Part shown: positions 31,205 through 57,376 of the stretch, piece by piece
Position numbering within the stretch: the first letter of the stretch is position 1
Layout: each line of letters begins with the position of its first letter
NCBI GenBank assembly: GCA_018829205.1
Contig: JAHJUE010000010.1
Location: 1 to 64,000, forward strand
DNA: 64,000 bases
Source of the DNA: Bacteroidota bacterium
GTDB taxonomy: Bacteria; Bacteroidota; Ignavibacteria; Ignavibacteriales; Melioribacteraceae
Direction: 5' to 3'
Translations under genes and position numbers: made by a program
Notes under the pieces: generated by a model
Told to the model about the DNA's origin: nothing
Databases searched by the model: none
Seen by the model: the letters and a program-made list of their open reading frames with translations, nothing else

Positions 31205-31867
31205 TTAGTCGATTTTTAACATTTTATTATTGAGAGCATATCCCTCAAATTCGGGGTTTTGGAGGTTTTGGAGAGCTTCTATGAATTTTTTTATTCTTTC
31301 GATTGATTCTTCAATTACATAAAAATCTTCTTTATTGCTGTTAATTGTTTTTTCATTTAACTCACTTTGAAGATTTTTAACAGACATATGAAGGCTGCTT
31401 AAAGGATTATTAATTTTATGCCCAATTGTGCAAGCCATTTCTATTAATGCTTTGTTGTGTTCAATACTTTTTAATTCATACTGAAGATTATGTATTCTAA
31501 CGCCCGATCTTATTCTTGCAAGCAGTTCCTGATTTTCAACCGGTTTAACGAGAAAATCGTCGGCACCTACGTCAAGTCCGGTTACCCTGTCCTTTAAACT
31601 TGCTCTTGCAGTTAAAACAATAAAATATATTAATTTAGATTCCTCGTCGGCTTTTAAAATATTACATAATTTAAGTCCGTCCATTTGAGGCATTGTCCAA
31701 TCTGCAATAATAACCTTCGGTTTATAACTTTTAAGTACTTCGAGAGCAATAAGACCATTTTCGGCAGATTTTACCTCATAATCGTTTTTTTGAAGAAGTC
31801 TCTCCAAAATAAATCTTGTATCGGCTTCGTCTTCAACTATTAATATTTTATCTTTTTGCTGATCCAT
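31205..31867 (-). CDS. response regulator fused to a DHp helix without an ATPase domain
   Basis: Residues 1-122 form a receiver domain with acceptor Asp56 (IIADWTMP) and Lys108 (FLVKP). Residues about 130-200 look like a histidine-kinase dimerisation helix with His150 in IGHKINNPLSSL. The residue after His, normally Glu in AHEINNPL, is Lys. No N/G boxes of an ATPase domain follow; the protein ends at 220 residues. It could therefore be a phosphate shuttle or phosphatase partner rather than a kinase. It overlaps the upstream receiver gene by one base. Confidence 0.85.
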   Translation of the reverse strand: MDQQKDKILIVEDEADTRFILERLLQKNDYEVKSAENGLIALEVLKSYKPKVIIADWTMPQMDGLKLCNILKADEESKLIYFIVLTARASLKDRVTGLDVGADDFLVKPVENQELLARIRSGVRIHNLQYELKSIEHNKALIEMACTIGHKINNPLSSLHMSVKNLQSELNEKTINSNKEDFYVIEESIERIKKFIEALQNLQNPEFEGYALNNKMLKID

Positions 31868-32262
31868 TATTTTTCCACAAGTTGAGTTACTTTTTTTAAG
31901 AAAAGATTAAAATCAATTATCGGTTTTAAAATATAGTCATCAGCGAGACTTTCTTCAAAGTAATTTCTGCCGCCGTTTTTTTTCTGGTATGCCGAAATTA
32001 GAAGAATTGGAATAGAAGACATACTTAATTCTTTCTTAATTTTTCTTGAAATTTGAATTCCGTCAACTCGTTCATTGTCAATATAAGTATTCTTTAAATT
32101 TATATCTAAAATAATTAATGATATTTCTTCATTTTTTAGGAATTCGAATATTTCGTTCCCGTCCTCTGTAATGATAACTTTATAACCCGTTTTGCCGAAA
32201 ATATAATTATAGAATTGCTGAGTGAAGGGGTCGTCTTCAACTATAAGAATTGACTTAGACAT
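31867..32262 (-). CDS. single-domain response regulator
   Basis: A 131-residue stand-alone receiver domain (MSKSILIVEDDPFTQQFYNYIF). The acceptor Asp lies in LIILDINL, and the conserved Lys is in YILKPI. Such CheY/Spo0F-like proteins act by protein binding or as relay intermediates. The ATG at 32262 is preferred over an upstream TTG at 32265. The gene overlaps the end of motB2 and the start of the REC-DHp gene, so the three are translated together. Confidence 0.88.
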   Translation of the reverse strand: MSKSILIVEDDPFTQQFYNYIFGKTGYKVIITEDGNEIFEFLKNEEISLIILDINLKNTYIDNERVDGIQISRKIKKELSMSSIPILLISAYQKKNGGRNYFEESLADDYILKPIIDFNLFLKKVTQLVEK

Positions 32263-33031
32263 CAACAGTTTTAAACCTTACTATTATACTTATTCTTCTG
32301 TTTGACGCGCTGTATGGATCTTTGGGATTTTTGAGTCTATTATCAGCATAACCGCGTATTTCATTTATTTGAGTCGGTTCCAATCCGCCTTTTAACAAAG
32401 CTCTTCGAGCGGCATTTGCTCTGTCTGTGCTTAATTCATAATTAGTATAACCCAGTCCGCTGCCGGGGAATTGTCTTGAATCTGTATGACCTTCAAGAAC
32501 AATTCTATTATTAATTTGACTAAGTTGTTTGCCGATTTTAATTAATAAATCTTCAGAGTTTTCTTTAAGAGTAGCCGTTCCAATATCAAAAAAAGAATCC
32601 TGCTGGCTTTCCATTATTTCAATCAATAATCCTTCTTCGGTAATAGTGATTTCCATCTGATTAACCAGCGCTTTAAATTCTTCTTCATTGGTAAGCTGCT
32701 GAACAATATCTTTTCCCATTTCCTCTAATTTTTCTTTTTCTTTTTGTCTAAGAAAAACTTCATCCATTAAATCGGGTTTTATACTGTTTAAATTTTTCCC
32801 TTCCATTACGCTTGGACCGTTTCCAATTGCAAATCCGGAAGGATCTTTAAAATACTGGGATATATTTTCTTTAACCGAATCATCGGCGCCAAGAATCCAA
32901 AGAACAATAAAAAGAGCCATCATCGCAGTTACGAAATCAGCGTAAGCAACTTTCCAGGCGCCGCCGTGACCGGCTTCGCCTTTCTTTTTTGTTTTCTTAA
33001 TTATTATCTGTTGATTATTATCGTCGCTCAT
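32255..33031 (-). CDS. motB: second flagellar stator protein MotB
   Basis: A 258-residue inner-membrane stator subunit. The N-terminus GEAGHGGAWKVAYADFVTAMMALFIVLWIL carries the ion-binding Asp32 at the start of the single membrane helix. The C-terminal OmpA-like peptidoglycan-binding domain shows LEGHTDSRQFPGSG and NRRISIIVR. This N-terminal type (HGGAWKVAYADF) is distinct from the other MotB in the window (35283), so this is not a recent duplicate. It follows a second motA by two bases. Which ion drives this stator is not determined. Confidence 0.93.
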   Translation of the reverse strand: MSDDNNQQIIIKKTKKKGEAGHGGAWKVAYADFVTAMMALFIVLWILGADDSVKENISQYFKDPSGFAIGNGPSVMEGKNLNSIKPDLMDEVFLRQKEKEKLEEMGKDIVQQLTNEEEFKALVNQMEITITEEGLLIEIMESQQDSFFDIGTATLKENSEDLLIKIGKQLSQINNRIVLEGHTDSRQFPGSGLGYTNYELSTDRANAARRALLKGGLEPTQINEIRGYADNRLKNPKDPYSASNRRISIIVRFKTVDV

Positions 33032-33033
33032 TC

Positions 33034-33894
33034 TTAATCTTCTTTTTTACCTCTTAGATAATTTTCAAGTTCGCTGAAGGTCGGTCTCTCATCCGAAAAA
33101 ATTGTTCTTCTTGCAATTTCAACAGCAACAATAGGAGGGTTTCCTTTTGCATAGGCAACAACAGCGGCTTTAATAGTTTCTAGGTATCTAACTTCGTTTT
33201 CAATCATATGTTCAATATTCGCGGCCAAAGGACCAACAAAGCCATAAGACAATAACACTCCCAGAAAAGTACCTACAAGAGCTGCCGCAACGTGATGGCC
33301 TACGGCTTCGGCACCGTCACTAATACTTCCCATTGTAATAATAATTCCCAAAACAGCGGCAACAATTCCCAAACCGGGTAATGCGTCTCCGACTTTAGAA
33401 ATTAAATGCGGAACAGGTTTCGATTCCATTTCAAAAGTTTCTATTTCAGTTTCCATTAAAGATTCTATTTCATGAGGAGGAACACCTCCGGAAAGCATTA
33501 CTTTCAGAGTATCGGTAAAATATGTCATTGCTACTTTATTTTTAAGCAGTTTTTTGTTTACCGAAAGCACTTCGCTTTCTTCGGGATTTTCAATATGTTT
33601 TTCAATTGCCAATAGGCCGTCTCTTTGAGATACAAGAAACAATTCATAAAATGATTTTAAGAGTTCCAAAAAATCTTTTTTTGTTTCGTGTTTATGACTT
33701 ATTGCTTTGGGAATAGCGGCAATTACTTTTTTAATTACGGATACCGGAGCCGAAATAAGCATACTGCCGATAGCAGCGCCGCCAATAGTTATAAACTCGG
33801 ATATCTGCAATAATACTAGCAGATTACCGCCGGGCATTGTAAACCCGATAATAACCGAGGCAACAACAACGACAAAACCAATTATAATAAACAT
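33034..33894 (-). CDS. motA: second flagellar stator protein MotA
   Basis: A 286-residue inner-membrane protein with four hydrophobic segments. The second half has the typical pattern PGLGIVAAVLGIIITMGSISDGAEAVGHHVAAALVGTFLGVLLSYGFVGPLA, where the channel Pro/Gly and TM3-TM4 residues lie. The large cytoplasmic loop with HETKKDFLELLKSFYELF lies between TM2 and TM3. It pairs with motB2 directly downstream. The 286-residue length is close to Escherichia MotA and longer than the other MotA (258) here. Confidence 0.93.
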   Translation of the reverse strand: MFIIIGFVVVVASVIIGFTMPGGNLLVLLQISEFITIGGAAIGSMLISAPVSVIKKVIAAIPKAISHKHETKKDFLELLKSFYELFLVSQRDGLLAIEKHIENPEESEVLSVNKKLLKNKVAMTYFTDTLKVMLSGGVPPHEIESLMETEIETFEMESKPVPHLISKVGDALPGLGIVAAVLGIIITMGSISDGAEAVGHHVAAALVGTFLGVLLSYGFVGPLAANIEHMIENEVRYLETIKAAVVAYAKGNPPIVAVEIARRTIFSDERPTFSELENYLRGKKED

Positions 33895-33903
33895 ATATTT
33901 CTT

Positions 33904-34623
33904 CTAATTATTATTGAAATCCTTTTCAATTTGTTGAACTTCTTTAAATAAACGTTCGCATTTCATTTCGGCAAAAACCCAATCGATTGTAAGTTTAAAC
34001 TCTTTTTCTTCAATTTCTTTGCTTAAATTCGTTAATATTGGATAACCAATTGTTCCACCGGCGCCTTTAATTTCATGAATAACTGTTCTTAATTTTTCGG
34101 CGTCTTTATTTTTTAACGCATCTAAAATCATCCGCTTCTTAATATCGAAAGAATCGACAAAAAACTTTAGCACATTTCTTTTAATTTCAAATTTATCTTC
34201 ATCATTCAGAAGATTTTGTCCTTGAGGCGTATTAAAATTACTTCCGCCTAAAATCTCATTTACGAAATCAGCAATAATCTTAAGGTCAAGCGGTTTAGAA
34301 ATAACTTTATGAGCACCCGCTTCCATAGCCGCCATTACATTTCTACGGGCAGTATTTGCGCTTATAACAATAACAGGTATACTGCGTATATCTTTTAACA
34401 CATTTTTTACCTGCAGCATTTTCATACCGTCAAAATTGGGCATCATCAAATCGAGAAAAATCAAGTCCGGTTTTTCTTCTGCTGCTTTTTGAATTCCTTC
34501 AAGTCCGTCGGCACATGTAATTACTTCAAAATTATAATCTTCTAAAAAATCTTTTAATGTATTAAGAATAACGTCCGAGTCATCAACAATCAGCACTTTT
34601 AATTTTTTAATGTTATTAATCAC
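33904..34623 (-). CDS. response regulator with C-terminal Hpt domain
   Basis: A 239-residue fusion of a receiver domain (acceptor Asp58 in LIFLDLMMP, Lys110 in VISKPLD) and an Hpt domain with His183 ([15 protein letters not shown]). It can thus both receive and pass on phosphate, as in four-step phosphorelays. The start is a GTG (34623), overlapping the csrA stop by eight bases. It lies between csrA and motA2 and could link the PAS kinase to the REC-DHp and single-domain REC proteins of the same operon. Confidence 0.88.
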
Positions 34624-35282: not shown

Positions 35283-36098
35283 TTATTTATTTAAGATTAC
35301 TATATCAACTCTTCTATTTTGCGCTCTGCCTTCGGGAGAATCATTAGGCGCGACAGGTTTGTTTTCAGAATATCCGACAACAGATACTCTTCCCTGCGGA
35401 ATTCTTTCTTCCGTCATTAAATAATACGCCGTATTAGTTGCGCGGGCTACCGACAAATGCCAGTTTGAAGAATAAGTATGCGAACTTATTGGAACGTTGT
35501 CAGTATGTCCTTCAATTCTAAGATCATTCGGAATTGTTCTAATTACATTAGATAATTTATTAAGAACATTTTTAGAACCAACTCCCAATTCCGCTTTTCC
35601 CGATGCAAAAAGTATATCGTCAAGTATGCTAACTGTAATTCCTCTTTCATTTTGAATAAGCTTAACAGCGGCTCCGTAACCGTTTTCCGTTATAACACGT
35701 TCAAGCGATTCCATTAAACTTGGCGCCGATTTAAAGTTTTGGTTGTAATCCGGAGTTGATTTAATTGTTTTAATATTACCGGATGAACCGAATATATCAC
35801 CAAAAGTATTAACCGTTGCAGTATATTTATCCATATCTATATTTGACATCGCGTATAGAATAATAAATAGACCTAACAGCAATGTAATCAAATCGGCATA
35901 AGTTATTAAATACCTGTCTTTATCATTTTCCAGATATTCATCATGCGAAAATTCTTCTAAGCCGTTAAACCTTCTTGATCGTTTCTCGGGAGCATACTCG
36001 TCAATCTCGATTTGATTATCGTCGGTATCTCTCCGCTTTGAATCGCCAGAACCGCTTCCAAAGAAACTTCCATCATATGTTTTTCTTCTAAGTGACAT
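35283..36098 (-). CDS. motB: flagellar stator protein MotB
   Basis: A 271-residue stator subunit with the membrane helix starting at YLITYADLITLLLGLFIILYAMS; Asp69 is the ion-binding residue. The C-terminal OmpA-like domain has RIEGHTDNVPI and GRAQNRRVDIVI. The first 50 residues are long, charged and Ser/Gly-rich compared with usual MotB. The only ATG in frame (36098) lies 142 bases inside motA, an unusually long same-strand overlap in a different frame, with no clear ribosome site. A non-ATG start nearer the helix remains possible. Confidence 0.88.
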   Translation of the reverse strand: MSLRRKTYDGSFFGSGSGDSKRRDTDDNQIEIDEYAPEKRSRRFNGLEEFSHDEYLENDKDRYLITYADLITLLLGLFIILYAMSNIDMDKYTATVNTFGDIFGSSGNIKTIKSTPDYNQNFKSAPSLMESLERVITENGYGAAVKLIQNERGITVSILDDILFASGKAELGVGSKNVLNKLSNVIRTIPNDLRIEGHTDNVPISSHTYSSNWHLSVARATNTAYYLMTEERIPQGRVSVVGYSENKPVAPNDSPEGRAQNRRVDIVILNK

Positions 36099-36733
36099 TG
36101 TTTTAATTTATCTGCCAAAGGCAGCCAAAAAAAGTTAGCGCTTACAATTCCCCATAGCGTTGCTATAAAGGCTGAAGCAATATTATGAATTAATGCATTA
36201 GGATCCGTGCCGGCATTTGCGAGAGTCATAATTAATGCCATAACCGTACCGATAATACCCATTGTCGGCGCATATCCTCCCATTTTCAGAAAAATAAAAA
36301 TATTCGCGTTATGCCTATATTCCATAGATTTAATTTCTGTCCGGGCAATAGTTTCAAGCATATCGCTGTTCGTGCCGTCTAAAACAAATTTTACCATTTT
36401 CTGCGGAAAAAAATAAAGCAATTTGTAAAGATCATCTTCAACCGAAAGCAGACCTAGTCTTCTAGACTTAACAGACAGCTCAACAAACGAGTTGATCATA
36501 GCCTTTATATTATAATCATCAGGCAAATACGCTATTTTTATTAGTTGAAAAATCTTCAAAAATTTTCCCATTCCGAATCCAATAATGGTCGCGGCAAAAG
36601 TTCCGCCGAAAACAATTATAATCGGTGACAATAAAAACAGTGCTTTTAAAGAACCTCCTTCAAGAAAAAAAGCTCCGAACACCGCCAGCAATCCAAAAAT
36701 TAGTCCGTACAGACTAGTGCTTTTTCTAAACAT
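35957..36733 (-). CDS. motA: flagellar stator protein MotA
   Basis: A 258-residue inner-membrane protein with four hydrophobic segments. TM3-TM4 read MGGYAPTMGIIGTVMALIMTLANAGTD and IASAFIATLWGIVSANFFWLPLADKL, with the conserved Pro-Thr channel residues. The basic C-terminus (IKSRLTSMLP) is typical, so the long overlap with motB is real coding DNA here. The start codon shares one base with the flgL stop. It forms the first of two stator pairs in the operon. Confidence 0.92.
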   Translation of the reverse strand: MFRKSTSLYGLIFGLLAVFGAFFLEGGSLKALFLLSPIIIVFGGTFAATIIGFGMGKFLKIFQLIKIAYLPDDYNIKAMINSFVELSVKSRRLGLLSVEDDLYKLLYFFPQKMVKFVLDGTNSDMLETIARTEIKSMEYRHNANIFIFLKMGGYAPTMGIIGTVMALIMTLANAGTDPNALIHNIASAFIATLWGIVSANFFWLPLADKLKQCHLEEKHMMEVSLEAVLAIQSGEIPTIIKSRLTSMLPRNDQEGLTA

Positions 36734-43443: not shown

Positions 43444-44151
43444 TTAAACTTTACCTACTTCGTTTGCCATACCCATAACGCGATCCATCGAGTTCATTAT
43501 TTTCTGCGAAGTTTCATAATCTTTATTAATTCCGATCATTGCCTGCATTTCCAATATCGGGTTTGTGTTTGATTCTTCAAGGTAGCCTTGAATTATATTA
43601 TATTTTTCCTCATCGGCCATATCGTATTCTTCGCCTTCAAGGTAAAAATTCTGAGATTCTGTTCTCATCAATTTTTCGGGATTTTCAACTTTAGCAATCA
43701 TTAATCTATCTACTACATCATCGCCAAGTTTAATTTCACCAAGTTTAGTAATTATAAGCGCTTTATTTTTGTCAAAAGCTTTTGCCGAAATATTAATTTC
43801 ACCTTTCGCGCTCATTACCTTGTTGCCCATAGCATTTATTAAAAAGCCGTCATCGGTTAAAGAAAATTTTCCGTTTTTAGTTATTTCAAGTCCTCTTTCA
43901 GTTTTAACCATAAAGAACCCTTCTCCGGAAAGCGCTAAATCCAAAGGGTTGCCTGTTAATGTAAACATGCCTTCGGTATAATCTGTTATTTGTTTTATAT
44001 CTTTTGCTTCGGCTCTCGATAAATATTCTGAAAAAGGTAATTCTCTTTTAAAGCCCGTGGAATTTATATTCGCTAGGTTATTAGCCACAATTTCTATGTT
44101 TTTCATATGATGGCTTAAGTTTTTCGCAATGGTATTTATTCCTTTATCCAT
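43444..44151 (-). CDS. flgF: flagellar proximal rod protein FlgF
   Basis: A 235-residue rod protein paralogous to flgG. The N-terminus HHMKNIEIVANNLANINSTGFKRELPF and the central GNPLDLALSGEGFFMVKTERG are family features; the C-terminus LEMQAMIGINKDYETSQKIMNSMDRVM closes the D0 helix. Named FlgF because it precedes FlgG and is shorter; the two are hard to separate by sequence alone. Confidence 0.85.
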   Translation of the reverse strand: MDKGINTIAKNLSHHMKNIEIVANNLANINSTGFKRELPFSEYLSRAEAKDIKQITDYTEGMFTLTGNPLDLALSGEGFFMVKTERGLEITKNGKFSLTDDGFLINAMGNKVMSAKGEINISAKAFDKNKALIITKLGEIKLGDDVVDRLMIAKVENPEKLMRTESQNFYLEGEEYDMADEEKYNIIQGYLEESNTNPILEMQAMIGINKDYETSQKIMNSMDRVMGMANEVGKV

Positions 44152-44347
44152 TTGATACTCCCCGGCTGCCGTTTTTTAAATCGACTAAAAAGTTCATTAA
44201 ATACGCTGTTACAATATTTAATCTTATTGGTAGTCTTCCCGCTTTTTTATTCTGCTCAACGCATTTTGATACAAAATCATCGGCGTTGGAAATTACTTTA
44301 GTTTTTAAAGCGAGTCTCATAACTTCTTTTGTAAAAATGTTTTCCAT
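44144..44347 (-). CDS. small unknown protein before flgF
   Basis: The ATG at 44347 (MENIFTKEVMRLAL, 67 residues) is preferred to the upstream TTG at 44365 because AAAGG stands at a correct distance. The protein is basic and helical (LKTKVISNADDFVSKCVEQNKKAG), without signal peptide. It overlaps flgF by eight bases and starts 11 bases after the 396-residue gene. A small rod-related or regulatory role is possible but unsupported. Confidence 0.6.
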   Translation of the reverse strand: MENIFTKEVMRLALKTKVISNADDFVSKCVEQNKKAGRLPIRLNIVTAYLMNFLVDLKNGSRGVSNG

Positions 44348-44357
44348 TTTTGCCCTT

Positions 44358-45548
44358 TCAAGCAAGTTTGTTTAAACTTTTAGATCGTGATAATGAATCG
44401 AACATCATTTCTTTTGTTTCATCAACAGTTACAGTTAGGTATGAATCGATATTAATTTCCTCAAATATTCTTGTATTAAGTTTGCACATATAATCTTCAA
44501 TTCTGGAAAAGTTAGCCATTGTAGTATTTACAACTCCGAATAATTTTGAACTGTTCATCATTGCTTGAATAGCAGTATTTTCGAATCGGCCTTGATCTGG
44601 GTTTATAAATATTCTGTATGTATCGTCTTTAGAAGCTGTGGATTTTTCAAACTTATAATTGATAAGTTCAAGTCTACTTCTGAATTTTACTACTACAAAT
44701 TCAGGATAAATATTGTACTTGTTATAAATAGATTTTTGAAGAATGTATTTTATCATTAAAGACTGAATTACTTCAAGTTCTTGAATTGAAGATTCTATAA
44801 GAATGTTTTTTTCTATTTCAGATTCTATTGTTCTAGCTAGCGATAAGAATTCATCTGATTTATCTCCAACCGATACAAGATTAAATTGATGAGCTTCATT
44901 TTCATAATCGAAAATCATTGCTTCATTGATCTTTAAATATATTTCCTGAGGAAGGTTAAGTCTGTTCAATCTTAACAATGACTCAAAAATTTCCGAACTT
45001 AATTTCTCAAACGACATATCAAATATTTTATGATATGAATTTGCTACATCTTTAAATCCTTCGTTTGAGTTATCCCATATTAAATTTATCAAAAGCACAA
45101 TTTGACTTTCGTCGAAATCAATTCCCGCTTTCTCAACGTAATTAATTAATTTTTCAAGCTTAGATTTTGTCAATGATTTTTTATTGGCAATCACATATCT
45201 CAGTATTTTTTCGGACAGCACAGATTTCGATAATTGCAATTTATCAAGAAGCAGAATTAATGCTCCTGATTCGGCGTTCAGCAAATTATCAAACTTATCA
45301 AGGGCTAATGTAAATGGATACTGCTGAAGTACTTTTGCTAATATCTCATCTCCTTTTTCCGCGTTTACTGGGAGCTGGGTTTGAAATACTTTACCGTTGA
45401 TTAATACTTTGTAATTATTGTTGAATTTTTCGAGGATATTAAGCAAAGCAGTTGAATTAACCGCCGGAAGATTGCTTATTGCCGTACCCGCATTTATATT
45501 AATTGTGCCCGCTGTCATGCTTGTTATATTTGAAACTGCAGATATCAT
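44358..45548 (-). CDS. unknown protein in the rod region of the flagellar operon
   Basis: A 396-residue protein, Ser/Ala/Thr-rich at the N-terminus (ISAVSNITSMTAGTININAGTAISNLPA), followed by VLINGKVFQTQLPVNAEKGDEILAKVLQQYPFTLALD, which looks somewhat like the strands before FliK-type domains. The remainder is helical and charged, with no signal peptide or membrane segment. The ribosome site GGTGAG is fair. It overlaps its upstream neighbour by four bases, so it is translationally coupled. Possible role in export or length control, but I do not recognise the family. Confidence 0.6.
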   Translation of the reverse strand: MISAVSNITSMTAGTININAGTAISNLPAVNSTALLNILEKFNNNYKVLINGKVFQTQLPVNAEKGDEILAKVLQQYPFTLALDKFDNLLNAESGALILLLDKLQLSKSVLSEKILRYVIANKKSLTKSKLEKLINYVEKAGIDFDESQIVLLINLIWDNSNEGFKDVANSYHKIFDMSFEKLSSEIFESLLRLNRLNLPQEIYLKINEAMIFDYENEAHQFNLVSVGDKSDEFLSLARTIESEIEKNILIESSIQELEVIQSLMIKYILQKSIYNKYNIYPEFVVVKFRSRLELINYKFEKSTASKDDTYRIFINPDQGRFENTAIQAMMNSSKLFGVVNTTMANFSRIEDYMCKLNTRIFEEINIDSYLTVTVDETKEMMFDSLSRSKSLNKLA

Positions 45549-46111
45549 TTGTACTCACCTGCTAATAATTGAATTTTTGCCGCGAGATGAATTTCACCTT
45601 TGCCGATACTGTTTTTTCGCGCCCTGAAGGTAATGTCTTTACCGTTATCGTCTGTTTTAATATTATAGTAACGAAGTTTACCTCTTAAAGTCGACAAATT
45701 GTTTTCTTCAATACTTCCAATTTGTTCTTCTCTTAATTTTTTAATATTGCTCTTAAGCATTTCCATTTTTCTTTTTTTATTTCTTTTAACTTTTGCTGCC
45801 CATAAATAGATAAGCCCCAAAAGCATTACAAGTTCAACAAGCACAAACAATTTTGCCGCAAAATCTTTTTGTAAAAACTCTAAAATATTTTTATCAATAT
45901 TAGAGTTACCCGCTTTAATTATTTCAGCGTTATTTATAACTTCTGCAGGTATTGCCGCCGCCTCATTTTCCTGCTGTTTTGCTCTAATCTCCGAAATTTG
46001 TTTATCAAGCATTGCGCGTACATCCACAGAAGAAGTGTCGACAATTTGCGCTGTATTTATTGAACAAAATATAAATGACAATACAAGTAATGTTAAAATT
46101 GTCTTTATCAT
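45545..46111 (-). CDS. unknown membrane-anchored protein in flagellar operon
   Basis: 188 residues: a signal peptide or first helix (TILTLLVLSFIFCSINTAQ), a periplasmic Gln/Glu-rich segment (ISEIRAKQQENEAAAIP), a membrane helix at about 88-106 (KLFVLVELVMLLGLIYLWAA), and a basic cytoplasmic tail (KVKRNKKRKMEMLKSNIKKLREEQ). The topology resembles a small bitopic regulator or a FliL/FliO-like factor, but fliL and fliO exist elsewhere in the cluster. Four-base overlaps on both sides tie it to its neighbours. Unknown function. Confidence 0.6.
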   Translation of the reverse strand: MIKTILTLLVLSFIFCSINTAQIVDTSSVDVRAMLDKQISEIRAKQQENEAAAIPAEVINNAEIIKAGNSNIDKNILEFLQKDFAAKLFVLVELVMLLGLIYLWAAKVKRNKKRKMEMLKSNIKKLREEQIGSIEENNLSTLRGKLRYYNIKTDDNGKDITFRARKNSIGKGEIHLAAKIQLLAGEYK

Positions 46112-47415
46112 TTTCTTATCTTCCTTCTTAAAGGGAATTTTAATGTTACGGCCGATCCGGTATTTTGATAAGAACTAATATTAAATTCACCTTCATGTTT
46201 TTTTATAAGGTTTTCAATTATTCTTATGTTTAATTCGGTCGGGTTATTAATAAAATTGTCTTTCGAAGAGTTTGTTTTTAAACTAGCCGTAGTAACAACT
46301 TTTAGAAGTATATAATCGTTGTTAAATCTTGTTTGAATAATTATTCCGCCTTTAGCGGTACTTCTGTTTTTTATTAAACCAATTACATTTGTGAGCAGCT
46401 GAAAAATATAATTTGGATGGCTTAAAATTGAAGGTATATTATTTTCAAAATCCAATACGCATTCAAGATTAACATTATCAAGTGTTGATTTAACCAGGCT
46501 GTAATATTCCGTAACAATTTCATTAATTTTTATCGGATGTATTTTATTGTTCTGCTGGTTAACACTTGCAAATTTTATAAGTCTTTTAACCGATGAATTT
46601 ATTTTTTTTATCTGCGATTTAATAAGTTTTACTTCTTCTTCCTGATCCGGAGTACTATTTAAAAATTCCACATTGCTCATTATAACCTGCATAGGTGAAA
46701 GCAGATCTTCAATAATACCTTGTGTTAATTCGCCAATAGCGGCAAGCCTAAAATCATTTGATAACTTTGCCTGGTAAGTTTGTAAATCTTCGTATGTTGA
46801 TGTCAACTTACTTTTAAGAATAATTTTATTAATTTTCGCGAGACTTAAATTAAGCAGCATTTGAATAGTCTGCTTATCCATTGAGCTGAAATTTGCGCTT
46901 GTAATTGTTGTAAGAATAGAAAGCAGACCAAGTCTTTTTCCGTCTTCGAAGAACGGGAATAACAGGTAGTTAAGTTTTGGACCTTCGTTGTTATAGCTGT
47001 TCAGCTCAGGAACAATCATCGGGCTAGCGCTTTCGAACAGAAGATTAAAAATCCCTTCCTTATATAAATGGTTCATTACTTTAACTAAATCAGAATTACT
47101 TTCGCCGTTAACGGGATTTAGAGAATGGTATGATTCATCAAAAAAAAGAATTACCGAATCTTTCATGGGAATAATTCTTTTTAATGATTTGTTTAGTTTA
47201 TCCGTTACGGTTGAGGCTTCTCTAGCGTTATCAGTTTCTTTTTCGAAAGTAGAAATATTTTGAAACATATGAGAATACTTTTCGAGCATTATCCCGTTAT
47301 TCTGGTAATTACTTAGATTAGAGTTCTTCGATTCAATTACTTCCTGAGTCTCAACATCCTTTAAGGATCTGTAGAAAGGCTCTATCTCAACGGTATTTTC
47401 TTTATGAAGTCTCAA
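46108..47415 (-). CDS. degenerate histidine-kinase-like protein (no phosphoacceptor His)
   Basis: A 435-residue soluble protein. Residues about 75-200 look like a GAF-type sensor domain (PMKDSVILFFDESYHSLNPV ... RLGLLSILTT). Residues 222-280 align with a DHp helix (FRLAAIGELTQGIIEDLLSP), but the usual His of GIAHE is Glu236. The ATPase domain remains only in outline (LLTNVIGLI; GSAVTLKFPLR) and the DxGxG loop is absent. It is thus likely a pseudokinase scaffold or allosteric partner. The start is a TTG (47415) with no clear ribosome site. Confidence 0.75.
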   Translation of the reverse strand: MRLHKENTVEIEPFYRSLKDVETQEVIESKNSNLSNYQNNGIMLEKYSHMFQNISTFEKETDNAREASTVTDKLNKSLKRIIPMKDSVILFFDESYHSLNPVNGESNSDLVKVMNHLYKEGIFNLLFESASPMIVPELNSYNNEGPKLNYLLFPFFEDGKRLGLLSILTTITSANFSSMDKQTIQMLLNLSLAKINKIILKSKLTSTYEDLQTYQAKLSNDFRLAAIGELTQGIIEDLLSPMQVIMSNVEFLNSTPDQEEEVKLIKSQIKKINSSVKRLIKFASVNQQNNKIHPIKINEIVTEYYSLVKSTLDNVNLECVLDFENNIPSILSHPNYIFQLLTNVIGLIKNRSTAKGGIIIQTRFNNDYILLKVVTTASLKTNSSKDNFINNPTELNIRIIENLIKKHEGEFNISSYQNTGSAVTLKFPLRRKIRK

Positions 47416-47419
47416 TGTT

Positions 47420-48301
47420 TTATATCTTGAAATTATTAGTTTCTTGCTGGAATAATTCTAAGTATGAATCAATTAATTCATTTAGTTTTTCTTCCGTATC
47501 AAGTTTTAATATGTCAATTACGTTTTTATCAAAAGTATAATCTTTGTCCCAGTAAAAATTTCCTGTCTGCAATTTTTGCGTTGCATAATCCGCCAAATGT
47601 ATTACCGAAGCTAATTCCGGACTGCTTTCGCATTTAGAGGGATTATGATGATTTAAGATTGCGTCGCAAAGTTCATCGGGCAGATTCCACTTTTTACCTA
47701 AAAAATTACCTACTTCCTGATGAGTTAAACCAAGTTCTTCAAACTCTAAATTAAGAGTTGATTGACAATCTGTAGCTTTATTTACAATATTTTCAAAACC
47801 TGAGTGGAAATATTTATGAATAACCGGAATGCCTAAATCGTGCAGAAGTCCCGCAACAAATGCTTCTCCGCCGATTTTCAAACCGAGATCGCTTGCAATT
47901 CTTTTTGCCGCATTTCCTGATATAACCGAGTGCAGCCAGAATTCGTTTTGATTTAGATTTTTATCGGTTTTGTTTTTGAATGACTCAATCATAGAAAGAG
48001 CGATTACAATATTTTTAATATCAAGATAACCGATAATTAAAATCGCAAAATCAATAGTAGAAACTTTACGAGGCAATCCGTATAAAGGAGAATTCGCAAT
48101 CGATAAAATCTTAGTAGCCAGACCCTGATCTTTGCCGATCATTTTGCTAAGAAGATTTGTATTTGTTGAAGAGTCGTCAAGTAATTTAGAGACCTCCACC
48201 ATAATATTAGACATTGCGGGCAGGTTATAAATATTTGCCAAAACCATTTCGGTTTTTTTTCTTTTATCAGATCCGGGTTTTGTTGTTATGTCGGTTATCA
48301 T
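47420..48301 (-). CDS. HDOD-domain protein (second of two)
   Basis: A 293-residue signalling protein with an HDOD domain (residues about 20-220). The core reads KDQGLATKILSIANSPLYG, then LLHDLGIPVI, LTHQEVG, NHHNP and HLADYA. The His/Asp positions that bind metal in related HD-GYP phosphodiesterases (LHS, HD, H, HH, D) are all present, though most HDOD proteins are not known to be enzymes. It is about as long as the neighbouring HDOD protein and shares its layout, so the pair is a tandem duplication. Its gene begins 10 bases after that one ends. Confidence 0.88.
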   Translation of the reverse strand: MITDITTKPGSDKRKKTEMVLANIYNLPAMSNIMVEVSKLLDDSSTNTNLLSKMIGKDQGLATKILSIANSPLYGLPRKVSTIDFAILIIGYLDIKNIVIALSMIESFKNKTDKNLNQNEFWLHSVISGNAAKRIASDLGLKIGGEAFVAGLLHDLGIPVIHKYFHSGFENIVNKATDCQSTLNLEFEELGLTHQEVGNFLGKKWNLPDELCDAILNHHNPSKCESSPELASVIHLADYATQKLQTGNFYWDKDYTFDKNVIDILKLDTEEKLNELIDSYLELFQQETNNFKI

Positions 48302-48311
48302 TTTTTCACTC

Positions 48312-49202
48312 TTATAGTTTTATAGATTCTAGTTGGCTTTCAAATAAATCTTTATATGTTTCAGTAAATGATTCAAGATATTCAAGACTTCCAAGTTTTA
48401 GTATTTCTACTACTTCCATGTCAAGTTCAAAATTCTCGTCCCATTTAAAATTTCCAATTCCAAATTTCGCAGTCATATAATCCGCTAAATGAATAACTGC
48501 GGAGAATTCTGCTTCATCACCAGCTTCGCTTGGTTTATGATGGTACCTAACTGCATTTTTTAATTTTTCGGGAAGGTTCCAGCGGTCAATAAGCATTTCG
48601 GCAATTTCACAATGTGAAACGCCTAATACCTCAATCTCAGCTTGGGTATAATTCATTTTACCTGTTTTTACAATTTTTTCTATTTCTTTATACTCATTAT
48701 TAAAATATTTATAAATAACTGGTATTCCCAAATCGTGCAATAAACCGGCGGTAAAAATCTCGCCGCTTAATATATAACCTAAATCGTCAGCTATTCTTTT
48801 TGAGGCTGTAGCAGTTAATAATGAATGTTCCCAGTAACTGTTCTGGTCAAATTTTGTGTCGCCTATGTTCTTAAAGGCTTCCATTAGCGACAAAGCTATT
48901 ACAATATTTTTAATATGATTGAAACCCAGAATAACAATAGCGAACTCAATTGTAGAAACGCGGCGGGGAATTCCGTATAAAGGAGAATTTGCTACAGCTA
49001 ATATTTTTGTTACAAGTCCCTGATCCTTACTAATCAATTGTCCTAACTGCGCGGCACTTGATCTCGGATCTTCAATTATTTTTGTAATTTCAAAAATAAT
49101 AGTAGGTATAGAAGGCAAATTATAAACAGAGGATAAAACTCTATTTACCTTTTTCTTGTTTTGTTCTTTTACTTCACCTGTATTTTTATCTGTTGTATTC
49201 AA
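48312..49202 (-). CDS. HDOD-domain protein (first of two)
   Basis: A 296-residue paralogue of the following gene, with KDQGLVTKILAVANSPLYGIPR, LLHDLGIPVIYKYFN, VSHCEIAEML and VRYHHKPSEAG. The start appears to be a TTG (49202), inside the end of fliA and without a good ribosome site; translation coupling to fliA is plausible. HDOD proteins often link motility, development and c-di-GMP responses, but a direct partner cannot be named here. Confidence 0.85.
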   Translation of the reverse strand: MNTTDKNTGEVKEQNKKKVNRVLSSVYNLPSIPTIIFEITKIIEDPRSSAAQLGQLISKDQGLVTKILAVANSPLYGIPRRVSTIEFAIVILGFNHIKNIVIALSLMEAFKNIGDTKFDQNSYWEHSLLTATASKRIADDLGYILSGEIFTAGLLHDLGIPVIYKYFNNEYKEIEKIVKTGKMNYTQAEIEVLGVSHCEIAEMLIDRWNLPEKLKNAVRYHHKPSEAGDEAEFSAVIHLADYMTAKFGIGNFKWDENFELDMEVVEILKLGSLEYLESFTETYKDLFESQLESIKL

Positions 49203-49812
49203 CTTGAAGTTTTTCCTTCATTTCTTTCATAATTTTTGAATGTATCTGTGAAACTCTAGATACGGTAATACCTAATGTATCGGCTATTTCCTTATAATTA
49301 AGATTTTCATAATAATAAAGAGAGATGATCAATCTATCGCGTTCTTCAAGACTTTTAATTAATCTAATTAAGATTTCTTTCTGTTCGTCTTTTTGCATTA
49401 TTTCATCAGGCTGTTCTGAGTCAGAAGGGATAATTTCGTGAAGCTGGTAACCGTCTTCGCCGTCGTAAGAATAATTCAAGGAAACATTTTTATATTGAAT
49501 ATCGGTTTCGGGATTTAAACTTCTTGGTTTTATCTGCAGCTTGCGAAGTTCATCTATAATTTTACCTCTGATTCTTTGAATTGCGTATGTTTCAAATTTT
49601 GTCCCGTAATCAGGGTCAAAACGATCAATAGCTTCACTTAAACCTTCTACGCCGAACTGAAAAAAATCTTTCTCATCAACCACAGTTAGATTCATAAATT
49701 TTGAATTATGAATCACATAATGAACCAAATTGGTATAGTTTACCATAATTTGTTTCTTTACTGAAGGTGATGGCTCTTGTTTAAAAGTGTCCCAAAGTGC
49801 CGCGTTATTCAT
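49186..49812 (-). CDS. fliA: flagellar sigma factor 28 (FliA)
   Basis: A 208-residue alternative sigma factor. Region 2 reads VDEKDFFQFGVEGLSEAIDRFDPDYGTKFETYAIQRIRGKIIDELR, as in FliA/WhiG, and region 4 has YYENLNYKEIADTLGITVSRVSQIHSKIMKEM. It should drive late flagellar genes, for instance from the sigma-28-like site at 31171-31197. A sigma-54-like promoter lies upstream of its cotranscribed neighbour. No FlgM anti-sigma gene is recognised in the window. Confidence 0.93.
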   Translation of the reverse strand: MNNAALWDTFKQEPSPSVKKQIMVNYTNLVHYVIHNSKFMNLTVVDEKDFFQFGVEGLSEAIDRFDPDYGTKFETYAIQRIRGKIIDELRKLQIKPRSLNPETDIQYKNVSLNYSYDGEDGYQLHEIIPSDSEQPDEIMQKDEQKEILIRLIKSLEERDRLIISLYYYENLNYKEIADTLGITVSRVSQIHSKIMKEMKEKLQVEYNR

Positions 49813-50044
49813 TTGGATTATTTCCTATTAAGTTATTCTCATCAAAATGTTTTTCTTTATCCATTGTGGCTTTGTTAATAGCTTTTAAGAAGGCTATTGC
49901 AAGAATACTTAGCATAATTGTAACAACAATAAAAACCGCAATTGATCTTAAAAGTACGTCATGGATTAGTAAGCCCTGCTGACTGAAGATTATGATAGAA
50001 ATAAAGAAAACGAGAAGTCCGAAGTAGAGTACTATTTTGTTCAT
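49805..50044 (-). CDS. small membrane protein before fliA, unknown
   Basis: 79 residues with two predicted membrane helices (IVLYFGLLVFFISIIIFS and LRSIAVFIVVTIMLSILAIAFL) and a charged Asn-rich tail (DKEKHFDENNLIGNNPNE). It overlaps fliA by eight bases and is the first gene after the sigma-54-like promoter. Position suggests a link to early flagellar gene control or membrane targeting; the family is not recognised. Confidence 0.6.
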   Translation of the reverse strand: MNKIVLYFGLLVFFISIIIFSQQGLLIHDVLLRSIAVFIVVTIMLSILAIAFLKAINKATMDKEKHFDENNLIGNNPNE

Positions 50045-56274: not shown

Positions 56275-57035
56275 TATCCGAAACTCCTTACTAAAGAACC
56301 TATTATTAAATTCCATCCGTCAACAAGTATAAATAACAAAATTTTAAAAGGGAGCGAAACAAGCATTGGGGGGAGCATCATCATACCCATTGACATAAGT
56401 ATGCTTCCAACAATCATATCAATCATCAAAAATGGGATAAACAGAAAGAAACCTATAACAAATCCTGCTCTCAATTCACTTATAACAAATGCCGGAATTA
56501 ATGTCATTGTTGAAAGATCATCTTTTTTTTCGGGCTGTGTATCAGAACTAAGACTAATAAATAATTGCAGGTCTTCATCTCTCACATTGCGCAGCATAAA
56601 TTCCCGCACGGGTTTAATTCCGCGCGCATAAGCTGAATCGACCGTTATTTCATTATTTAGATAAGGTTGAAGAGCATTATCATTTACATTATTAATTGTA
56701 GGCTGCATAATAAAAAAGGTTACAAACATAGCAATGCCTGCCAAAAGCTGGTTGGGCGGCATCTGCATTGTGCCTAATGCCTGACGCAAAAAATGAAAAA
56801 CTATGATCAACCTTAAAAATGAAGTTGTCATTATAAGAATTGACGGGGCAAGAGACAAAATTGTTAAAAGCAGCAATAACTGCAAGGTTGAAGAAACTTC
56901 TTCGGGATTGCTTGATGTGCCTATATTAAAATCAATTTTGGGAATTGGGATTGAAGTCCCCTGCTGCGCGTATAAATCAGTTCCAGCAGCAATAAAAAAA
57001 ATTAATAAAAAAAATATTTTAGATATGCTTTTCAT
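56274..57035 (-). CDS. fliP: flagellar export gate protein FliP
   Basis: A 253-residue inner-membrane protein with a signal peptide (SISKIFFLLIFFIAAGTDLYAQ). The key stretches TILSLAPSILIMTTSFLRLIIVFHFLRQALG, MPPNQLLAGIAMFVTFFIMQP and FIPFLMIDMIVGSILMSMGMMMLPPMLVSLPFK are all present. It forms the core of the export pore. Confidence 0.95.
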   Translation of the reverse strand: MKSISKIFFLLIFFIAAGTDLYAQQGTSIPIPKIDFNIGTSSNPEEVSSTLQLLLLLTILSLAPSILIMTTSFLRLIIVFHFLRQALGTMQMPPNQLLAGIAMFVTFFIMQPTINNVNDNALQPYLNNEITVDSAYARGIKPVREFMLRNVRDEDLQLFISLSSDTQPEKKDDLSTMTLIPAFVISELRAGFVIGFFLFIPFLMIDMIVGSILMSMGMMMLPPMLVSLPFKILLFILVDGWNLIIGSLVRSFG

Positions 57036-57376
57036 TTGATACCCATGTTTCCTTTCAGCAGATCTAAAAAGTTCTTTTTTTCCGTAGAGCTGTTTACTTC
57101 ATTTTCCGCTTCTTGCAAGAAATTGTCCTGTTTGTCAATAAGAGTAATCGAATTGTCGCTTATACCCAATACATAAATTTTATCTCTTATTTTTATAACA
57201 GAGATATATTTTTTAGGCATTAGTACCTGAGTTGATAATACACTTATGTTTATAAGTTTTGATGCTTTTTTATCGTATGTAAATAAATACTTTTTAACCA
57301 GATAAAGCATTACATACATTACTCCAAGCAGTAAAAACAAAATAAAGAAGATTTGAGCAATGTCGCCGAAACCCAT
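57032..57376 (-). CDS. fliO: FliO-like flagellar export assembly factor
   Basis: A 114-residue protein with one N-terminal membrane helix (IAQIFFILFLLLGVMYVMLYLV) and a basic beta-rich cytoplasmic part (ISVLSTQVLMPKKYISVIKIRDKIYVLGISD) as in the poorly conserved FliO family. Its place between fliN and fliP (overlapping both) supports the name. Confidence 0.82.
   Translation of the reverse strand: MGFGDIAQIFFILFLLLGVMYVMLYLVKKYLFTYDKKASKLINISVLSTQVLMPKKYISVIKIRDKIYVLGISDNSITLIDKQDNFLQEAENEVNSSTEKKNFLDLLKGNMGIK

Follow-up and report, generated by a model that had tools for sequence, protein, structure and literature searches.

We studied a block of closely packed genes between flgF and fliA in a 64,000-nucleotide stretch of DNA from a Bacteroidota bacterium (class Ignavibacteria, order Ignavibacteriales, family Melioribacteraceae; GenBank assembly GCA_018829205.1, contig JAHJUE010000010.1, positions 1 to 64,000 of the forward strand). 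The whole of this stretch is called the window below, "the order" and "the class" are those just named, and L and G numbers are our own handles for loci and genomes. The block encodes two paralogous HDOD proteins, a kinase-like protein, a bitopic membrane protein, a 396-amino-acid (aa) protein and a 67-aa protein. Its membership in the flagellar programme is supported, its gene order is conserved in the relatives that bear FliP, and its main oddity appears to be a sensor kinase that lost catalysis yet was kept by the order. We give about even odds to the reading that the block is a segment of a flagellar operon next to the sigma-28 gene, combining regulation with an export switch, in which the dead kinase would act as a scaffold that reads the state of assembly.

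The block is real: all its genes lie where the original prediction had placed them, on the minus strand, in the order flhA, flhF, flhG, orf79, fliA, HDOD2, HDOD1, kinase-like gene, bitopic gene, 396-aa gene, 67-aa gene and flgF, followed by flgG, flgA, flgH, flgI, flgJ, flgN and flgK (flhF, flhG, fliA, the HDOD genes, flgF, flgN and flgK were named from family matches, the others by inspection). From fliA to flgF the longest overlap is 17 bases (HDOD2/fliA) and the widest gap 10 bases; the overlaps of a few bases and gaps of at most 11 bases that had been described hold at every junction except that 17-base overlap. The downstream boundary is flgF (43444-44151, PF06429 2.5e-10), and the first gene of the conserved unit is orf79 (49805-50044), which overlaps fliA and encodes a 79-aa hydrophobic protein with, by inspection, two membrane stretches.

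The kinase-like protein (46108-47415, 435 aa) has a probable GAF domain followed by DHp and CA parts, and the claim that it is a pseudokinase was borne out: Glu236 occupies the phospho-His site, and none of the N, G1 and G2 boxes is present. In Pfam its HisKA match (2.7e-4) stays below the cut-off, and the consensus of 69 copies matches HisKA at 3.7e-6, GAF_2 at 0.0037 and HATPase_c at 0.0053. Pooling the relatives gave 69 distinct kinase-like sequences, one of them partial (L136), and we aligned either 35 copies or 69, the latter being the window copy and 68 from relatives. Neither DxGxG nor the N-box pattern occurs in any of the 69 order copies; the phospho-acceptor His is absent in 67, with Glu in its place in 52. 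The two closely related pseudokinases that have a His at this site (L022 and L125) are still without ATP boxes. A loose GxG[LIMV] pattern is found in 30 of the 69 copies; when order rows are aligned with class kinases, the G2 and lid region is missing from them, and the pattern can arise there only from a GGGI-type strand.

Outside the order, in the same class, kinases at the same gene position are intact in nine of nine cases, with an H-box that holds His, DxGxG and GTGLGL. The best curated match is AtoS for the window kinase and for both class-level kinases scanned. In an unrooted, quickly built tree of 33 kinases, which came with warnings on letter make-up, the 19 order copies form one side of a branch with 100% support and a length of 2.15 changes per column. 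The simplest reading is that the intact state is the older one and that the kinase turned into a pseudokinase without changing its gene position, early in the history of the order. Among the genomes examined, the death of the kinase and a shortening of FliA, described below, appear to be specific to the order.

The retained residues bear on what the dead kinase might do. Fifteen positions are invariant over 35 copies, and 10 of the 28 invariant or near-invariant positions crowd into residues 215-247, the first DHp helix, even though the His is lost. This would suit a reverse sensor of the DivL type, whose conserved DHp face would bind a phosphorylated CheY-like receiver and pass the signal to the HDOD proteins and the bitopic protein, setting chemotaxis or flagellar number and not assembly order. 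There is precedent in DivL, which has Tyr for His and binds DivK through its DHp-CA region (as given in excerpts of PMC4211667), and receiver, receiver-HisKA and receiver-Hpt proteins are encoded within the window (31205-34623). Nevertheless, we consider such a sensor unlikely: the DivL excerpts describe N, G1, F and G2 boxes that are retained, whereas those of the pseudokinase are gone, and the unit itself has no receiver gene.

The sigma factor next to the block has changed as well. FliA (49186-49812, 208 aa) matches FliA_WhiG at 2.2e-47 and 161.7 bits, short of the cut-off of 189.6, and Pfam finds Sigma70_r2 and Sigma70_r4 in it and no Sigma70_r3. FliA measures 205-219 aa in 65 of 66 order copies and 242-255 aa in the nine class-level copies; eight aligned order rows are without the stretch between regions 2 and 4, which the nine class-level proteins hold to varying extent and which we take to be sigma region 3. 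The two HDOD proteins, HDOD1 (47420-48301, 293 aa, PF08668 1.7e-52) and HDOD2 (48312-49202, 296 aa, PF08668 7.4e-61; beyond the interval originally delimited for the block), are identical at 136 of 293 aligned positions. Besides plain ones, six HDOD proteins from the class were scanned, all encoded beside fliA, and all six carry a sigma region 4-like tail (L175:7975-9063, L175:9054-10100, L178:8004-9077, L179:8003-9169, L180:10851-11540 and L182:1708-2766). The tail matches FliA_WhiG at 4.1e-15 to 6.7e-7 in five of them and Pfam Sigma70_r4 at 3.8e-8 in the sixth; in L182 a general sigma-70 model does slightly better. No such tail was found by Pfam in the two HDOD proteins of the window, and HDOD proteins of the order measure 280-329 aa. 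Taken together, these features could mean that the order rebuilt a sigma-28 hub, with FliA losing region 3, tailed HDOD proteins giving way to plain pairs and the dead kinase kept as a scaffold, the whole forming a phosphorylation-independent, perhaps FliA-binding checkpoint. We put this forward tentatively, as a somewhat unlikely scenario, and know of no flagellar regulator that such a checkpoint would resemble.

Conservation of the block across relatives places these changes in context. Median spacings over related loci, duplicates included, are −8 bases for fliA/HDOD2 (n = 86), +10 for HDOD2/HDOD1 (n = 80), −4 for HDOD1/kinase (79 of 80 within 400 bases), −4 for kinase/bitopic (n = 85) and −2.5 for bitopic/396-aa (n = 34); because these short medians recur over related loci, the tight coupling of the genes is not due to chance. 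From orf79 to flgF the block is uninterrupted in all 59 distinct loci that hold both ends, with no stretch of more than 150 bases outside the block families, except that in 13 of them the 175-251-base slot of the small gene is uncovered. The architecture of fliA, two HDOD genes, kinase-like gene, bitopic gene and flgF is found in 38 of the 69 distinct kinase loci, with the 396-aa family (FliK2, see below) added in 16 and with FliK2 and FlhB2 in 4; in the remaining 11, contig ends cut the locus, or the number of HDOD genes or a FliK2 remnant deviates. There are three HDOD genes in L115 and one each in L030 and L101. Upstream, orf79 is present in 65 of the 69 loci, and a distance rule places flhG directly upstream of it in 53 of these; among the other 12, L045 and L132 still neighbour flhG, L101 and L105 have little upstream sequence, and flhG lies clearly elsewhere in 8.

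The block also follows the flagellum. A full-length kinase-like protein (at least 364 bits, the next match scoring 89) occurs in 41 of 58 relatives, and so does FliP; 39 relatives have both and 15 neither (Fisher p 5.7e-10). Melioribacter roseus, a cultured relative, has been described as motile by means of flagella. Six of 40 relative stretches are without the kinase-like gene: L020, L051, L053, L054 and L055 are also without flgF, and L052 starts downstream of flgF. In L020 (G043), a FliP-positive relative in the order that is without the module, other genes follow flhG, and no FliK match was found at E up to 1. A scan with a single peptide pattern over one genome per species gave 53 loci, under the titles Ignavibacteria, Ignavibacteriae, Ignavibacteriales, Ignavibacteriaceae, Melioribacteraceae, Melioribacter, Chlorobiota, Bacteroidota, Bacteroidetes and plain "bacterium"; it did not return the class-level kinases found later by a phylum-wide search of 395 genomes. 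That search, which scored at most four candidates per genome and may thus have missed some, recovered 13 further genomes of the class outside the order, with kinases at 130-230 bits. Nine of the 13 loci are syntenic (orf79-fliA-HDOD-kinase-bitopic-flgF), come from four families and include two near copies, L176 and L177; the other four (L184-L187) are not syntenic. No such block was found in seven stretches (L188-L194, two of them short) from FliP-positive class genomes without a kinase match. Outside the order, the block is therefore confined to part of the class.

The two genes nearest flgF appear to belong to a known export switch. The 396-aa protein (44358-45548), in which a FliK-like strand motif had been noticed, has no PF02120 match at E up to 10; the motif was rightly assigned for the family, since PF02120 is found in some members and one fold comparison points the same way. 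Specifically, PF02120 is detected in 2 of 15 order members (best 5.3e-5), the family gene is the second-best PF02120 match of its genome, after canonical fliK, in G038 and G036, and at the same slot in class-level L180 a 422-aa gene reaches 1.5e-8 and 34.8 bits, above the cut-off of 29.8. Against canonical FliK, the C-terminus gives an HH probability of 59.7 (E 8.9e-5) for the subgroup that bears FlhB2 and 31.8 (E 4.9e-4) for the whole family; members without FlhB2, taken by themselves, score only 1.0 against canonical FliK and 99.05 against the FlhB2-bearing subgroup, with controls at or below 4.8. The predicted model of the window protein (pLDDT 81.7, pTM 0.76) returned the PscP switch domain 5cuk at rank 2 in Foldseek (prob 1.00, E 0.031, TMt 0.51) and suggests an OB-like N-terminal barrel (weak structural matches), a helical middle and a T3S4-like C-terminal domain. 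Among 50 VIA-align rows the PscP domain was not present, these being OB-fold, MamM-type and other matches at Z 4.8-6.1; the profile gave only chance-like matches to PDB sequences, the consensus was of no help against Pfam, and viral structures yielded nothing useful. We call this family FliK2, a diverged second FliK.

The 67-aa protein (44144-44347 from ATG; 73 aa if it starts at the TTG at 44365) matches nothing in Pfam or NCBIfam. At its slot, L029, L032 and L033 (family f2) and L108 hold intact FlhB2 copies of 94-96 aa, which match the C-terminal part of PF01312 at 3.4e-19 to 2.4e-23 and TIGR00789 at 88.9 to 95.7 bits, under the cut-off of 117.35; class-level L180 has FlhB2 at the same slot too. 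The 67-aa family (17 sequences) matches the four FlhB2 copies with an HH probability of 92 (E 6.7e-7) and canonical FlhB C-termini with 15.8, compared with at most 1.2 for 12 other families against FlhB2 and at most 0.7 for 11 against the 67-aa family. Of the 96 columns in the FlhB2 profile the match covers 35-92 only, and what the family retains is the helical half of the C-terminal domain of FlhB. Because of this HH match, a bridging copy in L049 (FlhB2 HMM 4.7e-7, TIGR00789 0.0012) and the slot shared with intact copies, the 67-aa gene appears to descend from FlhB2, and, to judge from sequence, it makes up with the 396-aa gene a FliK2-FlhB2 pair that has eroded. The 66-row tree of FlgG, FliA and FlgF shows intact FliK2-FlhB2 pairs in two separate places, no pair in 40 of its rows, and truncated FlhB2 in a sister group that includes the window; the tree class with FliK2 and the small gene takes in L041, where the small gene was not found, and L052, with a 107-aa frame of unsure kinship. 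Canonical fliK (62445 onward, PF02120 3.7e-19) and canonical flhB, with NPTH at residue 270, lie elsewhere in the window.

Such erosion raises the question of whether most of the block is in ordinary decay, its genes being lost functionless and held together by transcription only. The truncation of FlhB2, the erosion or absence of FliK2 in many relatives, down to a 141-aa remnant in L122, and the loss of kinase catalysis all go in this direction. For the block as a whole, however, decay is very unlikely, because it would not keep invariant kinase residues: 15 positions are unchanged over 35 copies, the kinase-like gene is present in 39 of the 41 FliP-positive relatives, and the HDOD and bitopic genes accompany it in nearly all loci.

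The bitopic protein (45545-46111, 188 aa) has the topology that had been proposed for it. The predicted model has a helix at 2-19, signal-peptide-like by inspection, a second at 30-51, a long one at 70-126 and three C-terminal helices, and so presents the membrane anchor, coiled coil and C-terminal helical domain of a FipA-type layout; a C-terminal Glu-x2-Leu motif and a weak affinity to DUF6115 and DUF2802 complete the picture. It may be a remote relative of FipA with the task of bringing FlhF to the pole, in which case the kinase-like protein and the HDOD proteins would tune flagellar placement. According to excerpts of PMC11620751, FipA spans the membrane once and has a coiled coil and a C-terminal DUF2802, its gene lies just downstream of a flhA/flhF/flhG/fliA/chemotaxis operon, and contact with FlhF is lost if Gly110 or Leu129 is changed. 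The counterparts of FipA E126 and L129, Glu173 and Leu176 with the same spacing of 3, are kept in 65 of 65 filled rows, and HDOD1 and FlhF show a partial rate correlation of 0.57. On the other hand, only 13 of 67 bitopic rows retain the invariant Gly that FipA has 16 residues ahead of the Glu, and the rate correlation between the bitopic protein and FlhF is 0.07. DUF2802 (PF10975) gave no match above its cut-off in 58 genomes, the bitopic gene surfacing once at E 0.48 (G013); DUF6115 (PF19610) was found in 1 of 35 order members, at 0.001 and below the cut-off. Among seven class-level copies, DUF6115 reaches 2.2e-4 to 0.09 in four (all under 27 bits) and DUF2802 0.049 and 0.29 in two, again below cut-offs. 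On balance an FlhF partner module is improbable, and membership of the window protein in DUF2802 or DUF6115 was not reached. The class-level orthologues share its C-terminus (HH probability 94.8 over 32 columns, 14 controls at or below 0.3); the model matched nothing in PDB at E below 1, and the consensus was of no help against Pfam. That the protein might be FliO is excluded, as fliO is present at 57032-57376. FipA and SwrB may serve as models for how the bitopic protein works and are not memberships.

Evolutionary rates give a further hint of which proteins may touch. Partial correlations of evolutionary distances (40 taxa and 13 families, four of them the reference) are highest of all pairs for the kinase and HDOD1 (0.65), with 0.57 for FliA and HDOD2 and 0.49 for FlhF and FlhG. 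These values can only hint at contacts, because chromosomal neighbours share their history and the reference is not independent.

We return to the reading of the block as a regulatory and export-switch segment, ordered as fliA, HDOD adaptors, NtrB-like sensor kinase, bitopic gene, FliK2, FlhB2 and flgF. Under it, a pseudokinase dimer and the paired HDOD proteins would form a phosphorylation-independent cytoplasmic scaffold. At the membrane the bitopic protein, in a role like that of FipA or SwrB, would let this scaffold sense how far the basal body has been assembled, and the scaffold would relay this to export or to the expression that depends on FliA. FliK2 and the 67-aa protein would either be left over from a second FlhB/FliK switch, additional to canonical fliK and flhB, or make small adjustments to it. 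We infer that the function is a phosphorylation-independent checkpoint of assembly or of sigma-28; a regulatory or assembly checkpoint, and not a part of the motor, is our best guess.

Several observations weigh against this reading. FliP occurs without the kinase gene in G043 and G019 (68% complete), and the kinase gene without a FliP match in G020 and G032. In the class outside the order, FliP is present in 25 genomes (weakly in G308) and the block in only nine of them; the bitopic gene of these nine loci gives weak HMM matches (16-24 bits) in seven and is recognised by position alone in L176 and L180. The bitopic protein has no match above any curated cut-off and covaries in rate with no partner, its distances being near saturation. 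A link to sigma-54, which would be predicted for an ancestral kinase acting on an NtrC-type regulator, is without clear support: a scan of the window at up to one mismatch found no sigma-54 promoter (1.18 expected), and a looser scan, against a crude shuffle and with site positions unchecked, gave 10 sites against 20.1 expected in the nine class loci and 28 against 11.3 expected in 16 order loci. The surplus of sites in the order does not suit a simple absence of sigma-54, but we draw no conclusion from it. Finally, FlgM seems to be present elsewhere, so the block need not replace it.

These results modify the earlier picture of the block as a lineage-specific motor, assembly or checkpoint module without standard flagellar parts. 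That it is a coupled flagellar module held up, gene order being kept in FliP-bearing relatives, and a check for poor conservation in motile relatives came out negative. The statement that none of its proteins is a standard flagellar part was half wrong, the 396-aa protein being FliK2 and the 67-aa protein an FlhB2 remnant. "Lineage-specific" fits the loss of kinase catalysis and the shorter FliA, which among the genomes examined are specific to the order, and not the arrangement fliA-HDOD-kinase-(bitopic)-flgF, which nine class relatives outside the order share. A lineage-specific motor part is not supported: no family or fold match points to the motor. What the block does offer is a kinase gene seen before and after it became a pseudokinase, at an unchanged position and in flagellar assembly, where read-outs are easy. 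It also shows the stepwise erosion of a second FliK-FlhB2 switch pair, and a sigma-28 that has become shorter. The role of a sensor kinase for flagella after the loss of phosphorylation thereby becomes directly testable.

Some further features accompany the block. A weak holin-like Pfam match of orf79 (0.0014) stays below the cut-off. An identity of the 67-aa protein as FlgM is unsupported; an FlgM-like 89-aa frame sits outside the window (G000:C3:81572-81718), matching weakly, at E 0.056, across the whole profile, and FlgM-like frames of about 80-115 aa recur in relatives. Within the window, flgN is also found elsewhere; the protein encoded at 31205-31867, near motA/motB, has a receiver domain and then a HisKA-type domain, without an ATPase domain. 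Two motA/motB-like pairs (32255-33894 and 35283-36733), a few kilobases apart, hint at two stator sets. A search of viral contigs for the kinase gave nothing useful.

Among the titles and abstract openings we covered in the open-licence literature on HDOD proteins and motility, on HDOD, histidine kinase and GAF combinations, on flagella of Ignavibacteria and on flagellar pseudokinases, we found no description of the block. The NtrB-type flagellar kinases FlgS and FleS/FlrB presumably offer a parallel as soluble kinases in a flagellar operon; the unit in the window differs in being without a response regulator or clear sigma-54 sites and in having a kinase that appears catalytically dead throughout the order. 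DivL likewise keeps a histidine kinase fold after losing its phospho-His, but the available excerpts give it ATP boxes, which the order pseudokinase is without. The HDOD domain is shared with the motility regulators GsmR, Cj0248, SadB and PSPTO_4229, for which the source excerpts report effects on swimming, and the Cj0248 structure 1vqr is among the matches; unlike these, the block in the order has two paralogues fixed beside fliA, and HDOD proteins of class relatives carry a sigma region 4-like tail. With FipA and SwrB, the latter described in excerpts of PMC4526659 as a membrane protein encoded by the last gene of the Bacillus subtilis fla/che operon that activates the export apparatus, the bitopic protein has a single membrane anchor in common; it differs in a start that resembles a signal peptide and in a further helix ahead of the membrane one. 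FlhB2 copies of 94-96 aa at the slot in relatives are like FlhB2/FlhX/HP1575 (TIGR00789), whereas the window copy is the helical half only. FliK2 differs from FliK in being a second copy beside canonical fliK, short, with an OB-like barrel and a helical middle, and, in the window, in being undetected by PF02120. Like FliK and YscP/PscP (PF02120, T3S4), it appears to have a C-terminal switch domain, which sequence reveals in some members and the predicted fold suggests for the window protein. In relatives, FliK2 adjoins a paralogue of the FlhB C-terminal domain. For Salmonella it is established that the C-domain of FliK binds that of FlhB, according to excerpts of PMC6972891, and those of PMC9321776 write flhX-fliK as a gene pair in Nitratiruptor.

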